From an uncultured Bacteroidota bacterium (GTDB lineage Bacteria; Bacteroidota; Bacteroidia; Flavobacteriales; Flavobacteriaceae): a stretch of DNA of 64,000 nt. Below, one piece after another: positions 19,426-28,258 of the stretch (position 1 is its first letter; each line of letters opens with the position of its first letter). The stretch spans positions 62,001 to 126,000 of the forward strand of contig CACNIG010000002.1 of assembly GCA_902620455.1 (NCBI GenBank), read 5' to 3'. A model generated the notes under the pieces. That model saw nothing but the letters and a program-made list of their open reading frames with translations, made no database searches and had not been told where the DNA came from. The position numbers were made by a program, and so were the translations under genes.

Positions 19426-20049
19426 TTAATTTGGAAAAGGTATATATACGATCTTTTTAGTTTGGAAAAAATGATCTGAGAAAAATTTTGATATTTCAAA
19501 AACTTTAAAATTATTAAAATGTTTAAGTTCAGATTCAAGGTCTCCACCCTTAAGTGATATTATACCATTAGGAATACTATTTTTTGATTTTGACTTGATA
19601 TTATTTTTTACCAACGAATAAAATTTATCCATTTTAGACACAGCTCTTGAAATAACAAAATCATATTTTAAATGATGATTTTCTGCTCTATCATTGATCG
19701 TAATTACATTTGACATATTTAATTTTTTTCTAATATCCTCTACAACTTTGATTTTTTTTGAGATACTATCTAATAGTGTAAAATTTACTTTAGGGAAAAG
19801 AATTGCTAGTGGAATCCCTGGAAATCCACCTCCAGTTCCAACATCCAGAACATCTGTTCCATCAATAAATTCATGAATTTTAGCAATTGATAAAGAATGA
19901 AGAATATGATTTACATAAAGGTTATCAATATCTTTTCTTGAAATGAGATTGACTTTTGAATTCCAAAATCTATGTAGTTCAATTAAACTATTGAATTTTT
20001 TAAGCTGATCAATAGATAACTCTGAAAAATGTTTGTCTAAGTCATTCAA
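19426..20049 (-). CDS. rsmG: 16S rRNA (guanine-527 N7) methyltransferase
   Basis: Methylates G527 of 16S rRNA. The 207-residue protein has the SAM-binding DVGTGGGFPGIPLAIL motif and the downstream FVISRAVSKMDKF and ISLKGG segments typical of RsmG/GidB. The start is TTG, and the sequence TTGA merges it with the aspC-like stop. It is cotranscribed with the aromatic operon by position only. Confidence 0.94.
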   Translation of the reverse strand: MNDLDKHFSELSIDQLKKFNSLIELHRFWNSKVNLISRKDIDNLYVNHILHSLSIAKIHEFIDGTDVLDVGTGGGFPGIPLAILFPKVNFTLLDSISKKIKVVEDIRKKLNMSNVITINDRAENHHLKYDFVISRAVSKMDKFYSLVKNNIKSKSKNSIPNGIISLKGGDLESELKHFNNFKVFEISKFFSDHFFQTKKIVYIPFPN

Positions 20050-21227
20050 GATAATAAATCTTTAATCCTAATGATTGCTTCTTTTATCTGTTCTCTTGAT
20101 GCAGAATATGAAATTCTTATACATTCAGGATATCCAAAGGCATCTCCAGGGACAGTAGCAACATAAGCTTTTTCAAGAATTAACATTGACAAATCATTTG
20201 CATTATTTATTAATTGGCCTCCAAATGTCTTACCAAATAGTTCAGAAACCTCTGGAAAAATATAAAAGGCGCCTGATGGTGGCTGGCTAACCTTAAAACC
20301 GTTAATTTGATTTACAAGATCTATGATCAAATTACGTCTTATTTTAAATTCGTCAACCATGTATTTTATTCTTTCTGGTGACTCCTCTAATGCGGTAATA
20401 GCAGCTCTTTGAGCAATACAATTTGCTCCGCTTGTTATTTGACCTTGCATTTTATTACATGCTTTAGCTAAAATCTTAGGAGCTCCTATGTAACCAATTC
20501 TCCAACCTGTCATTGCAAATGCTTTTGAAATACCATTTACTGTGACTGTTCTTTCATACATTCCTGGTAAAGAGGCAAAACTTACACTTTCAACTCCATA
20601 ATTTATATGCTCATAAATTTCATCTGAAACAACTATTACTTTTGGGTATTTAATTAACACTTTGGAAAGCTCGAGATACTCTTCTTTTGTAAAAACTGAT
20701 CCACTAGGGTTATTAGGAGAGTTGAGCATAACCATTTTTGTTTTATCCGTAATTGCAGATTCAAGCTGTTTAGCAGTCACCTTATAATTTGTGTTTTTAT
20801 TGGGGTGTACAAAGACAGGAATTCCATCAGCAAGAGAAACCATTGCACTGTAACTTACCCAGTATGGAGTTGGTATTACAACCTCATCACCCTTATTTAT
20901 TAAAGACATACAAACATTGGCAATGGATTGTTTGGCCCCTGTGGAAACTACAATTTGATCTGTATCATAATCTAAATTATTATCTCTTTTAAACTTTTTA
21001 CATATAGCTTTTTTGAGATCTAGGTATCCATCAACTGGAGAATATTTATGGTAGTTTTTGTTAATAGCGTCCACTGCTGCATCTTTAATATAATCTGGAA
21101 TATCAAAATCAGGTTCTCCAGCACTTAAAGTAATAACATCAATACCTTGATTTTTTAGATCATGAGCTTTAGCTGTCATAGCAACTGTTTGAGAGATTGG
21201 CAAAGAATTAATTTTATCTGATAACAT
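20046..21227 (-). CDS. aspartate/aromatic aminotransferase, class I
   Basis: A PLP aminotransferase of the bacterial Ib aspartate aminotransferase type (393 residues). Landmarks are SAGEPDFDIP at 35-44, PNNPSG at 171-176, SDEIYEHI near 201-208 and NGISKAFAMTGWRIGY at 231-246 with Lys235 as the PLP lysine. It lies 11 nt after the DAHP synthase/chorismate mutase gene in the pheA-tyrA operon. That position suggests it performs the final transamination of phenylpyruvate and 4-hydroxyphenylpyruvate, or of prephenate. That specificity is inferred from context. Confidence 0.92.
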   Translation of the reverse strand: MLSDKINSLPISQTVAMTAKAHDLKNQGIDVITLSAGEPDFDIPDYIKDAAVDAINKNYHKYSPVDGYLDLKKAICKKFKRDNNLDYDTDQIVVSTGAKQSIANVCMSLINKGDEVVIPTPYWVSYSAMVSLADGIPVFVHPNKNTNYKVTAKQLESAITDKTKMVMLNSPNNPSGSVFTKEEYLELSKVLIKYPKVIVVSDEIYEHINYGVESVSFASLPGMYERTVTVNGISKAFAMTGWRIGYIGAPKILAKACNKMQGQITSGANCIAQRAAITALEESPERIKYMVDEFKIRRNLIIDLVNQINGFKVSQPPSGAFYIFPEVSELFGKTFGGQLINNANDLSMLILEKAYVATVPGDAFGYPECIRISYSASREQIKEAIIRIKDLLS

Positions 21228-21238
21228 TTTTTGGGTTT

Positions 21239-22321
21239 TTATTTATTTAATATTTTTTTTTGATTGTTAATTGATTCTTGATGAATTGCTTTAAAAATTC
21301 TCAAAATAAATTCTTCACTTAAGCCGTGGTCTTCACCATCTAAAATCATCTTACCCAATATTTCATTCCACCTTTTGTTCTGAAGAATTGCCACATTATT
21401 TTCTGATTTAAGTTTTCCAATTCCTTTGGCAACTTCCATTCTCTTTCCAAGAGTTGTCAATAAATTTTGATCAGCTGCATCTATTTGTGATCTTAGATTA
21501 TTGAGTTTATTTTGGTAATCCTCTCCTTGGGAGGTTTTATCTCTAATCTTAAGGTCTTTCATTATCTCAATTAAACGATCGGGAGTAACTTGTTGAGCTG
21601 CATCGCTCCATGCATTATCAGGATCCCAATGAGATTCAATCATTAGTCCGTCATAGTTTAAGTCTAGCGAAGTTTGACTCAAGTCAAAAATTAAATCCCT
21701 CCTTCCAGCAATATGAGAAGGGTCACATATTAACGGTATGTCTGGAAAATTATTTTGAAATTCAACGGCAATTTGCCATTCTGGGTTATTTCTATACTTT
21801 GATTTATCATAAGATGAAAATCCTCTATGGATTACTCCAATATTTTTTATGTCAGCAGAGTGAATTCTCTCTAGCCCACCCATCCATAGAGATAAATCTG
21901 GGTTTACAGGATTTTTAATTAAAACTATTTTATCTGTTCCTTTAAGTGCATCTGCAATTTCTTGGACTATAAATGGACTGACCGTAGATCTGGCCCCTAT
22001 CCATAATATGTCTACATTATGTTCTAGGGCAAGATCAACATGAACAGAATTAGCTACTTCAGTAGCAATCATAAGCCCAGTTTCCTCTTTAACTCTCTGC
22101 AACCACTTTAATCCAATAGCCCCCACCCCTTCAAACATTCCTGGTCTAGTCCTGGGTTTCCATATTCCAGCTCTATAAGCAGTTACATCACTTTCTTTTA
22201 ATTGATTAGCAATTTTTAGAACCTGTTCCTCTGTCTCAGCGCTACATGGACCAGCTATAACTAGTGGATGTTCGAGATTCATTTGATTTAACCAGTTTCT
22301 ATATTCTTTTTTATTTTCCAT
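21239..22321 (-). CDS. bifunctional DAHP synthase / chorismate mutase
   Basis: Residues 1 to about 255 form a type I-beta 3-deoxy-7-phosphoheptulonate synthase: AGPCSAET (metal-binding Cys26), KPRTRPG at 55-61, IGARSTVSPF and DPSHIAGRR. After a short linker, residues from about 268 to 350 form an AroQ-type chorismate mutase (LRSQIDAADQNLL, LGKRMEVAKGIGKLK). The fusion thus joins the first step of the shikimate pathway with the first step of the Phe/Tyr branch. In related fusions the mutase domain also helps feedback control of the synthase. It lies 6 nt downstream of tyrA. Confidence 0.95.
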   Translation of the reverse strand: MENKKEYRNWLNQMNLEHPLVIAGPCSAETEEQVLKIANQLKESDVTAYRAGIWKPRTRPGMFEGVGAIGLKWLQRVKEETGLMIATEVANSVHVDLALEHNVDILWIGARSTVSPFIVQEIADALKGTDKIVLIKNPVNPDLSLWMGGLERIHSADIKNIGVIHRGFSSYDKSKYRNNPEWQIAVEFQNNFPDIPLICDPSHIAGRRDLIFDLSQTSLDLNYDGLMIESHWDPDNAWSDAAQQVTPDRLIEIMKDLKIRDKTSQGEDYQNKLNNLRSQIDAADQNLLTTLGKRMEVAKGIGKLKSENNVAILQNKRWNEILGKMILDGEDHGLSEEFILRIFKAIHQESINNQKKILNK

Positions 22322-22327
22322 AATTAT

Positions 22328-23176
22328 TTATTTTATTCCTTTTAATATTTCCTTAATTCCATTAATTCTCCTCATCTCGTAACTTAAAGTTTCTTGATCG
22401 CTCTTTTCAATTAATTTTTTAAAATTATCAATATTTGAAATGTATTCATCAAGAGACTCAATAATATTTTTTTTATTCTCAACAAAGATTGAAGACCACA
22501 TTTCAGGTGAACTCTTTGCTAATCTAACCGTTGATTCAAATCCACTACCAGCCATGTCATAAATTGCATGTTCACCATCTTCTTTATCCATTACTGTTTT
22601 ACCTAACATGAAGGATGAAATATGAGATAAGTGAGACACATATGCTATGTGTCTATCATGTTCTTTTGAATCCATAATTTTAATAATCATGCCAATTGAT
22701 TGAATAATTTTTTTGGCATTTGATAACAAATTACTATCTGTTTTATCAGTATCACATAGAATCATAACTTTATTATTAAATAAGTCCTTTGTGGCTGAAC
22801 CAGGTCCTGAAAATTCTGTACCTGCAATAGGATGGGCGGCCAGATAATTCTTTCTTTTTTTGTGATCCTTAACTGAATTACATATCTGAAACTTTGTTGA
22901 ACCAAGGTCAATTATCAAAGTTTTTTCTGAAATCTTATCTAAGTAATTTTGAAGTTGATTCTTTATTGATTCTACAGGTATAGCTAGAAATATATAATCT
23001 AATTCATTTAGTAAATCTTCATCATATTTTGCATCAATAATTTTATTTTTAATTGAATAGCTAATTGAATCATGATCAATATCATATCCATATATGGTAA
23101 GATTATCAAATAAATCTTTCATTTTAAGTGCTATGGAACCTCCTATTAACCCTAAACCAATTATACCAACTTTCAT
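22328..23176 (-). CDS. tyrA: prephenate dehydrogenase
   Basis: Oxidatively decarboxylates prephenate to 4-hydroxyphenylpyruvate with NAD(P)+, committing to tyrosine. The 282-residue protein starts with the Rossmann motif GLGLIGGSIA. It has the LAAHPIAGTE motif with the active-site histidine, and SHLSHISSFML and GSGFESTVRLAKSSP segments. It has no C-terminal ACT domain. Its start overlaps the pheA stop by ATGA. Expression should depend on the attenuator in front of pheA. Confidence 0.95.
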   Translation of the reverse strand: MKVGIIGLGLIGGSIALKMKDLFDNLTIYGYDIDHDSISYSIKNKIIDAKYDEDLLNELDYIFLAIPVESIKNQLQNYLDKISEKTLIIDLGSTKFQICNSVKDHKKRKNYLAAHPIAGTEFSGPGSATKDLFNNKVMILCDTDKTDSNLLSNAKKIIQSIGMIIKIMDSKEHDRHIAYVSHLSHISSFMLGKTVMDKEDGEHAIYDMAGSGFESTVRLAKSSPEMWSSIFVENKKNIIESLDEYISNIDNFKKLIEKSDQETLSYEMRRINGIKEILKGIK

Positions 23177-23985
23177 AATTTTTGATCTTTATATTCTCCA
23201 AGTATTTTAAACTCCTGAGCCATAAGCTCAATAATCTTAATCGCTTTTTGATAATTGTCAATTGAATCAAAAGTAATATCTACAAAGAAAGCATACTTAC
23301 CGGGTGTTTTAATAACCGGCAGCGATTGAATTTTCGTAAGATTCAATTTACAGTCACTCATCATATTCAGAATAGATGCTAGACTTCCTCTTTTATGATC
23401 AAGTATAAATTTAAGAGCAGCTTTATTAAAATTCGATATATGTTTTTTATTCTTTTCAACTATAACGAATCTTGTCATATTGTTTTTGATTGTCTGTATT
23501 GAAGAGTTTAAAATTTCTAAATTATATATGTCTGCTGCTTCTTTACTAGCTATTGCTCCTACTCCATTAATTTTATTTTCACTAATTTTTTTTGCAAATA
23601 AGGCTGTATCCTCACTCTCAATTAGCTTTATCTTAGGATATTTAGTAAAAAATTTTGTGCACTGAAGTAATGCCATTGGGTGAGAATGGACTTCATCAAT
23701 TTCATCAATACTTTGTCCAGGGAGACACATTAAATTATGATCAATACTAAGACTGTATTCTCCAGTAATTGACAAATTATATTCATCAATTAAAGCATAA
23801 TTAGGTAGTATAGATCCAGCTATAGAGTTTTCAATAGCCATTACCCCATATTCAGAATCTTTCTCAATTATTGACTTTACAAGCTTATCAAAAGTTGAAC
23901 ATTCATTTAGTTCGTATGAACTAAAATAGTTAGCAGCCACCAGATGATGGAATGATCCTTTTACTCCTTGAATAGATACTTTCAT
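23173..23985 (-). CDS. pheA: prephenate dehydratase
   Basis: Converts prephenate to phenylpyruvate, the phenylalanine branch. The 270-residue protein has the dehydratase domain with GVMAIENSIAGS (about 47-58) and the catalytic TRF at 171-173, followed by an ACT domain from about residue 188. In the ACT domain the classical GALV and ESRP phenylalanine-binding motifs read GSLA and QSLP, so feedback by Phe may differ from the enterobacterial type. It is the first structural gene of the operon; an intrinsic terminator ends 2 nt before its ATG. Confidence 0.95.
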   Translation of the reverse strand: MKVSIQGVKGSFHHLVAANYFSSYELNECSTFDKLVKSIIEKDSEYGVMAIENSIAGSILPNYALIDEYNLSITGEYSLSIDHNLMCLPGQSIDEIDEVHSHPMALLQCTKFFTKYPKIKLIESEDTALFAKKISENKINGVGAIASKEAADIYNLEILNSSIQTIKNNMTRFVIVEKNKKHISNFNKAALKFILDHKRGSLASILNMMSDCKLNLTKIQSLPVIKTPGKYAFFVDITFDSIDNYQKAIKIIELMAQEFKILGEYKDQKL

Positions 23986-23987
23986 AT

Positions 23988-24053
23988 AAAAAAAAAGTCC
24001 TGATTTGACAGGACTATAATATTTTAATTTTTAATTACATAATTATCCTGTCT
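23988..24053 (-). terminator. transcription attenuator of the pheA operon (terminator with competing antiterminator)
   Basis: On the minus strand AGTCCTG (24015-24009), a 6-nt loop and CAGGACT (24002-23996) form a perfect 7-bp hairpin followed by a run of eight T residues: an intrinsic terminator just before the pheA ATG. Upstream, GACAGGA (24052-24046), which overlaps the last codons of the leader ORF, is perfectly complementary to TCCTGTC (24013-24007). The second segment can therefore pair either with the first (antiterminator) or with the third (terminator). This is the segment logic of a ribosome-controlled attenuator. It is seen directly in the sequence; the function is inferred. Confidence 0.85.
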
Positions 24054-24105
24054 TCCTATTAAGAAAGTAGAAATAATTGTTGAAATAAAAGTTAAAATTA
24101 TTCAT
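24043..24105 (-). CDS. Phe/Tyr-rich leader peptide of the pheA operon
   Basis: A 20-codon ORF, MNNFNFYFNNYFYFLNRKTG, beginning with ATG (24105) and ending with TAA (24043-24045). Residues 4-14 contain five Phe and three Tyr. The stop codon lies just past antiterminator segment 1. A ribosome that finishes translation would cover that segment and allow the terminator, whereas a ribosome stalled at Phe or Tyr codons would leave it free to pair. The ORF begins only about 10 nt after a predicted -7 box, so the mRNA is nearly leaderless. Gene prediction would miss it because of its size. Confidence 0.85.
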   Translation of the reverse strand: MNNFNFYFNNYFYFLNRKTG

Positions 24106-24114
24106 AACAGTTAA

Positions 24115-24145
24115 CAAAAGTATAATAGGTATCAACAAAAACAAA
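24115..24145 (-). promoter_or_regulatory. predicted promoter of the pheA operon
   Basis: On the minus strand TTTG (24145-24142) and TACTTTTG (24122-24115) are separated by 19 nt, matching both elements of the Bacteroidota promoter (TTTG, TAnnTTTG). The expected transcription start is a few nt downstream, about 4-6 nt before the leader peptide ATG. Confidence 0.7.
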
Positions 24146-24154
24146 CTTTTTTGC

Positions 24155-24583
24155 CTATTTTTTAATTAAGGAACCATTGAGATAAATTGAATGCTCAATT
24201 AAAGTTGACTTCTCAAGGTTCTTTGAAACTGAACAATATTTATCAAAACTCAAAGCTGCGGCACGAACAATTTTATCACTTGGAATATTACCCTCAATAT
24301 ATAATTTGACATGTATTCTTTTCCATGGTTTACCTGGTGTAGACTCTCTTTCCCCTTCAACCTCCATTTTATATGAATCTGGGTCAAGCTTTTGTTTTTC
24401 TAATATTGATATAACATCAATACTACTACAACCAGCCACTCCCATTAGTAGAAGCTCCATAGGACTTGCACCTTGTACATTATAATCTGGAGAATATTTT
24501 CGATCTAGTAAAACTTTATGTCCATTTTCATTTGAAAGTTCAAACAAATACTTGTCATTAATTCTGTCTAAATAAATTGCCAT
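24155..24583 (-). CDS. OsmC family protein
   Basis: A 142-residue OsmC/Ohr-superfamily protein, a group of thiol-dependent hydroperoxide reductases. The two conserved cysteines are in LMGVAGCSSIDV and FDKYCSVSKNL, matching the family positions. It is the last gene of the methionine operon, sharing one base with the metX stop (TAATG). Association of an OsmC protein with acetylhomoserine sulfhydrylation suggests a sulfide or persulfide-related role, but that is inference. Confidence 0.88.
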   Translation of the reverse strand: MAIYLDRINDKYLFELSNENGHKVLLDRKYSPDYNVQGASPMELLLMGVAGCSSIDVISILEKQKLDPDSYKMEVEGERESTPGKPWKRIHVKLYIEGNIPSDKIVRAAALSFDKYCSVSKNLEKSTLIEHSIYLNGSLIKK

Positions 24584-28073: not shown

Positions 28074-28121
28074 AAAATAAATTTGTAAGAAAAAAAGTGA
28101 ATGATTGCGGGTAAAAGAATT

Positions 28122-28172
28122 ACTGCTTTAGCAATTTTTTTAAGAGGTTGCAATCAGTCAAATCCTTCCTCT
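28122..28172 (-). ncRNA. SAM-II riboswitch in the leader of the methionine operon
   Basis: The minus strand matches the SAM-II consensus. Stem P1 is AGAGG (28172-28168) with CCTCT (28147-28143). The conserved loop GATTTGACTGATTGCAA follows, and then an A-rich linker and TTGCTAAAGCAG downstream. A pseudoknot can form between ACTG (28158-28155) and CAGT (28125-28122). SAM-II is known from Alphaproteobacteria and some Bacteroidota, upstream of methionine genes, which is the context here. There is no visible Shine-Dalgarno sequence to sequester, so the regulatory output is unclear. Confidence 0.85.
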
Positions 28173-28258
28173 GTTTGAGGCTAAATTAAACAAAAAAAAT
28201 TTATTTCAAATTATTCTACTTTTTTCTTTTAAAAAAACCTGTTATTTTGGCTAAAATT

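Follow-up and report, generated by a model that had tools for sequence, protein, structure and literature searches.

A conserved Phe/Tyr leader peptide and a predicted transcription attenuator ahead of pheA in Flavobacteriaceae

Why does an aromatic amino-acid operon in an uncultured member of the Flavobacteriaceae begin with a tiny ORF crowded with Phe and Tyr codons? The locus lies in a stretch of 64,000 nucleotides (contig CACNIG010000002.1, positions 62,001 to 126,000; hereafter the window), for which an earlier reading of the letters alone, the original prediction, had proposed a leader peptide in front of pheA. Its coordinates and codon counts, a 20-codon ORF with five Phe and three Tyr in 11 positions, proved exact: Phe stands at codons 4, 6, 8, 12 and 14 and Tyr at codons 7, 11 and 13. 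The claim that the operon contains both pheA and tyrA was borne out by Pfam, which also places a DAHP synthase-chorismate mutase and an aminotransferase in it, the latter followed by rsmG. Upstream, osmC ends at 24155, and the promoter pair TTTG-19-TACTTTTG, the leader and the terminator sit between osmC and pheA. We take the TTTG to be the -33 element of Bacteroidota promoters. In the order of transcription, the features are:

24142..24145, minus strand: putative -33 box TTTG of a Bacteroidota-type promoter, with a 19-nt spacer to the -7 box
24115..24122, minus strand: -7 box TACTTTTG, a match to the consensus TAnnTTTG
24110, minus strand: predicted transcription start, 5 nt ahead of the leader ATG, from the box position in Flavobacterium psychrophilum
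24043..24105, minus strand: leader peptide ORF, MNNFNFYFNNYFYFLNRKTG plus stop, 20 codons, from sequence and conservation
24064..24096, minus strand: control-codon block, codons 4-14 (five Phe, three Tyr), from sequence
24041..24078, minus strand: predicted protector hairpin (1:2), from folding, which would hide region 2 in ribosome-free RNA
24046..24052, minus strand: region 2, GACAGGA, 5' arm of the antiterminator, inside the last leader codons, from sequence and pairing
24007..24013, minus strand: region 3, TCCTGTC, the antiterminator's 3' arm and also part of the terminator, from sequence and pairing
23988..24015, minus strand: intrinsic terminator (3:4), AGTCCTG-TCAAAT-CAGGACT, with T run, stem -10.4 kcal/mol
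23173..23985, minus strand: pheA, prephenate dehydratase (Pfam PDT, 1.1e-54)
22328..23176, minus strand: tyrA, prephenate dehydrogenase (Pfam PDH_N and PDH_C)
21239..22321, minus strand: DAHP synthase-chorismate mutase (Pfam DAHP_synth_1 and CM_2)
20046..21227, minus strand: class I/II aminotransferase (Pfam Aminotran_1_2)

Further upstream, a SAM-II riboswitch (window 28118-28177, minus strand, 80.3 bits) heads the minus-strand gene run that ends with osmC before the pheA promoter; the genes behind it are presumably metK and methionine genes.

Aromatic composition by itself is weak evidence in this AT-rich window. Among its 981 ATG-initiated ORFs of 9-45 amino acids (nested starts counted separately), eight have at least six aromatic codons in 11, and eight in 11 is reached by two, the leader and another ORF at +656-712; of those eight aromatic-rich ORFs, the leader alone has a terminator behind it. 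Because aromatic density alone is not rare in such DNA, conservation carries the case.

Of 25 genus genomes, 23 yielded a pheA, as did 226 of 249 sampled from the family, 99 of 196 in an order sample (family members included) and 215 of 247 in a phylum sample. The upstream analysis took in 209 of those loci, all with 150 nt or more of upstream sequence (L079, cut short, was dropped; L124, L133, L137 and L171 were duplicates). A script found a leader followed by a terminator ahead of pheA in all 23 genus loci (1 of 920 shuffles) and, for the rest of the family, in 118 of 121 loci (1 of 4,840 shuffles). Outside the family, where loci came from the top of the match list and are thus a non-random sample, the pair occurs in 5 of 21 loci from other families of the order (leader alone 10, one doubtful), in 15 of 24 from other orders of the class (leader alone 20) and in 4 of 20 from other classes. 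Dinucleotide-shuffled upstream regions yielded a leader in 265 of 8,360 cases and a leader with a downstream terminator in two of 8,360. Relatives do keep a short Phe/Tyr-rich ORF followed by hairpins, as the original prediction expected, and neither the genus nor the family proved to lack the ORF or to carry its aromatic codons at random.

Since the script keeps only the strongest hairpin, the counts of leader plus terminator are probably lower bounds. The misses in the family are L057, L078 and L095, the last with a terminator visible at the edge of the examined sequence. Leaders can be seen by eye in other loci scored as misses, started by GTG in L193 and shorter, with five aromatics, in L149, L151 and L152; L164, scored as a leader, looks like part of the upstream gene. 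Among named genomes, 77 of the 80 loci kept carry a leader by the script's criterion, Winogradskyella, Tenacibaculum, Flavobacterium, Arenibacter and Gelidibacter being among the genera, and the misses have four aromatics (L222), a GTG start (L241) or repeats with no leader seen (L253); in L250 and L279 the hairpin given by the script is located ahead of the leader. In L253, short repeated units containing GAGTTCGAAGAACGAAATAAAAT occupy the leader's place before pheA. The closest named loci belong to uncultured marine Bacteroidetes (94%) and to Cryomorphaceae bacterium MED-G11 (78%), which makes that marine genus the probable origin of the window. The gene order pheA-aminotransferase-tyrA-aroG is found in 62 of the 80 named-genome loci, and the window's own order, including rsmG, in three.

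Where the leader is absent, the loci fall into several kinds. None of the four loci read from 0.6-Mb genomes of the order (family f16, L156-L159) has it, with PheA of the same type; we take the size of these genomes to be as in Blattabacterium, and regulation was possibly lost there upon genome reduction. No leader precedes pheA in L172-L174, in which the gene lies directly behind another that is aroA-like in appearance, or in two loci with a distant PheA (L169 and L170, family f5). In other classes, four loci (L196-L199) whose PheA is 44-47% identical to that of the window have a leader, and the 16 with PheA 33-41% identical have none. Other genomes in the families of those four carry a distant PheA, whereas the four themselves combine a flavobacterial-type PheA with a Phe/Tyr leader. 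Because the leader tracks the more similar PheA, the pattern suggests that the operon may have moved into other classes together with its switch.

Codon changes among the 23 genus loci were read from one FastTree tree and one Fitch solution. The eight aromatic columns show eight synonymous changes, nine Phe-Tyr exchanges and one change from an aromatic to another residue, against 50 amino-acid and 19 synonymous changes in the non-aromatic leader columns. Judged by these substitutions, aromatic character is under selection and Phe and Tyr interchange, and composition and codon selection together mark the ORF as a likely control-codon ORF of a ribosome-mediated attenuator.

An intrinsic terminator lies between the leader ORF and the first gene, and a second helix excludes it: GACAGGA (24052-24046) pairs at 7 of 7 positions with TCCTGTC (24013-24007), a stretch that accounts for most of the terminator's 5' side. 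The original prediction had the ORF ending next to a segment that can form an antiterminator; such a segment exists, but its arm sits inside the last codons of the ORF, where a ribosome at the stop codon would mask it. In computed folds with a ribosome stalled at codon 14, the RNA still free favours the antiterminator (-12.2); with the ribosome at the stop codon, what remains free folds into the terminator (-10.4). Naked leader RNA forms protector plus terminator (-23.3, compared with -16.1 when the antiterminator is forced). The region as a whole folds only modestly better than its shuffles (z -1.87, with 5 of 200 as good).

These pairings recur in the 168 loci that have a terminator after the leader. 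A region 2:3 helix of at least 6 bp is present in 158 of them, and its core varies by lineage with both sides changing together (CGAGAC/GTCTCG, GGCAGGAT/GTCCTGTC, CGGGACT/AGTCCCG and CCGGGTT/AACCCGG). Taken singly, the antiterminators are weak, a mean of 5% of shuffled segments being as good; at most 10% of shuffles match them in 148 loci and more than 10% in the other 20. Pairs from the same locus have a mean pairing score of 18.4 versus 13.3 for cross-locus pairs, 14% of which reach the own-pair median. The control codons stand at stalling distance from region 2: from the first base of the last control codon it is 13-15 nt in 98 of the 168 loci and 9-18 nt in 157, and in the window 14 nt. 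Such spacings are close to the reach of a stalled ribosome. The region 2 segment ends by the stop codon in 152 loci and at most 13 nt past it in 16, in a search that reached 15 nt past the stop, so that larger values could not appear.

The ORF, the terminator, the mutually exclusive pairings, their spacing, the conservation and the selection on aromatic codons can all be read from the DNA, and on this basis we consider it very likely that the element controls the pheA-tyrA-aroG/CM-aminotransferase operon as a ribosome-mediated transcription attenuator. From the same features we infer that the leader is translated, that ribosomes stall in it and that readthrough responds. RNA polymerase would start a few bases ahead of the leader ORF, with a ribosome following. 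When charged tRNA-Phe and tRNA-Tyr are present, the ribosome would reach the stop codon and cover region 2, and the 3:4 terminator would form; when either is short, it would stall in codons 4-14 and leave region 2 free to pair with region 3, so that no terminator forms and transcription continues into the operon. In RNA free of ribosomes, the 1:2 hairpin would hide region 2, making termination the default.

Which amino acids are sensed we infer from the codons. The same attenuator might sense tRNA-Phe only, or tRNA-Tyr only, with the other residue as filler: the enterobacterial pheL leader is Phe-only, and one leader here, L168 from outside the family, has no Tyr. However, both residues occur in 174 of 175 leaders and in 77 of 77 in the named set, Phe-Tyr exchanges make up nine of the ten replacements in aromatic columns compared with roughly 1 in 6 to 8 among the single-base changes open to a Phe or Tyr codon, and the operon makes both amino acids, all of which leaves single sensing unlikely. 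The proposal that charged tRNA-Phe and tRNA-Tyr are both sensed thus has support at the level of sequence, and the mixed codons predict that a shortage of either amino acid induces the operon. Trp codons are found in 85 of the 175 leaders, none of them in this genus, and His, Ile and Pro codons are rare. In family loci outside the genus (for example L071, L077 and L102) Trp lies inside the Phe/Tyr block, and it may let the leader sense Trp as well, given the shared DAHP synthase; because about half of the leaders outside the genus carry Trp, the system as a whole may respond to three amino acids.

The hairpins could, besides or instead of terminating transcription, act on pheA translation by blocking initiation, an option suggested by the terminator stem ending 10 nt before the pheA ATG, which lies 2 nt behind the T run, and by a distance that is constant in the genus (stem start at -30 in 23 of 23). 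Even so, a G+C stem immediately followed by a T run is what termination calls for, and because the hairpin is far from pheA in many other genera, for example at -79 to -130, an initiation block cannot be the common function; we rate this somewhat below single sensing. Still less probable, and by a clear step, is that the peptide itself acts, as a small protein or as an arrest peptide binding the free amino acid: a leader peptide functional in trans, peTrpL, is known (PMC7298713), but residue order is not kept here, Phe and Tyr swap, and length and C-terminal part drift. A chance ORF before an ordinary terminator of osmC can be set aside almost entirely despite the aromatic-rich small ORFs common in the window (8 of 981 with at least six in 11), given the conservation and codon selection, the promoter between osmC and the ORF, and the persistence of the leader in relatives with other upstream genes.

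The leader ORF would begin very close to the 5' end of its RNA. In F. psychrophilum the -7 box has the consensus TAnnTTTG at -12 to -5, and leaderless mRNAs make up only 5.5% (PMC9723704, from the part available). All 23 genus loci have such a box, its end lying 6, 7 or 9 nt upstream of the leader ATG, which predicts 5' untranslated stretches of 2, 3 or 5 nt; in groups beyond the genus, box and ATG are 15-20 nt apart in 73 of 120 loci with a box. A scan for promoters of the E. coli type, which is uninformative in this phylum, gave no site at the leader. In the same genus, trpE was found in 18 of 25 genomes (a single trpE-type gene in the source genome), and in all 18 loci (L296, L297-L313) trpE is preceded by a Trp leader, in which two or three Trp codons stand side by side, and by a terminator; the peptide of the source genome (L296) is MKILNTYWWNYEI. 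Here 4-5 nt separate the end of the promoter box from the leader ATG in 16 of 17 readable loci, for a predicted RNA start at the ATG or 1 nt before it. Hence the pheA and trpE leader ORFs of the genus are predicted to start 0-5 nt from the transcript end, which makes leaderless initiation in a coupled attenuator testable. No hisG, sought as a second attenuator candidate, was found in this assembly.

More broadly, the pheA leader may represent a class-wide attenuator of the aromatic pool, in which Phe and Tyr codons (in many lineages also Trp) form an OR gate within one leader, the phylum being one that lacks Shine-Dalgarno initiation. On this view much of the class inherited it from a common ancestor, a few other classes acquired it along with the operon, and the order's 0.6-Mb genomes lost it; in the streamlined marine genus studied here, the pheA and trpE attenuators would both act on nearly or fully leaderless RNA. 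We hold this wider picture, taken whole, to be about evenly balanced between right and wrong. If the pheA leader is the attenuator proposed here, an old textbook switch controls aromatic amino-acid synthesis across a large group of environmental bacteria.

How does this leader relate to known systems? Rfam gave no match at gathering score for it, T-box and other riboswitch aptamers included; a search of five loci assigned no family, with no gathering-score match at four related pheA loci. No Phe/Tyr leader before a Bacteroidota pheA is described in the literature searched, which lay outside subscription papers. A 2004 work by Vitreschak reportedly names some Bacteroidetes attenuators. The available portions of PMC7366714, PMC2864571, PMC6429828, PMC7298713, PMC2965389, PMC4833913 and PMC1183508 likewise describe none.

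The original prediction presented the leader as a Bacteroidota case; it is indeed found before pheA, but attenuation in the phylum is not itself new, as far as the available parts of the sources go (RF01692, PMC9723704). Bacteroid-trp (RF01692), the Bacteroidete tryptophan peptide leader RNA (Weinberg 2010, PMC2864571, available in part), is also a leader-peptide RNA of this phylum, with another gene and other control codons; it is absent from the Rfam matches listed for the pheA leader, and the Trp leader L296 scores below its threshold (29.1 of 49 bits, on the trpE strand). A 2021 transcriptome study of F. psychrophilum reports a structured, expressed 5' element ahead of pheA that is conserved across other genera and has no Rfam match; separately from this element, the study proposes leader-peptide attenuation for amino-acid operons in general (PMC9723704). 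Gene and family are the same as here, and the available part of that study gives no sequence, codons or mechanism for pheA; we think that the two are probably the same element, in which case the proposed attenuator offers a concrete, conserved mechanism for what the study left unexplained. In the Sinorhizobium meliloti trpL attenuator, which is leaderless, the RNA likewise begins at or near the leader ATG, as measured there and predicted here, in another phylum and with Trp codons (PMC7298713, available in part).

The closest parallel in design is the enterobacterial pheL/pheA system (Rfam RF01859, Phe_leader), in which a control-codon ORF, an antiterminator and a terminator likewise precede pheA. 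The two are unrelated in sequence (17.4 bits, where the gathering score is 55), and the leader here carries Phe and Tyr, elsewhere Trp too, before an operon with tyrA and a DAHP synthase. The element would appear to work like pheL/pheA attenuation, yet from outside the Phe_leader family.
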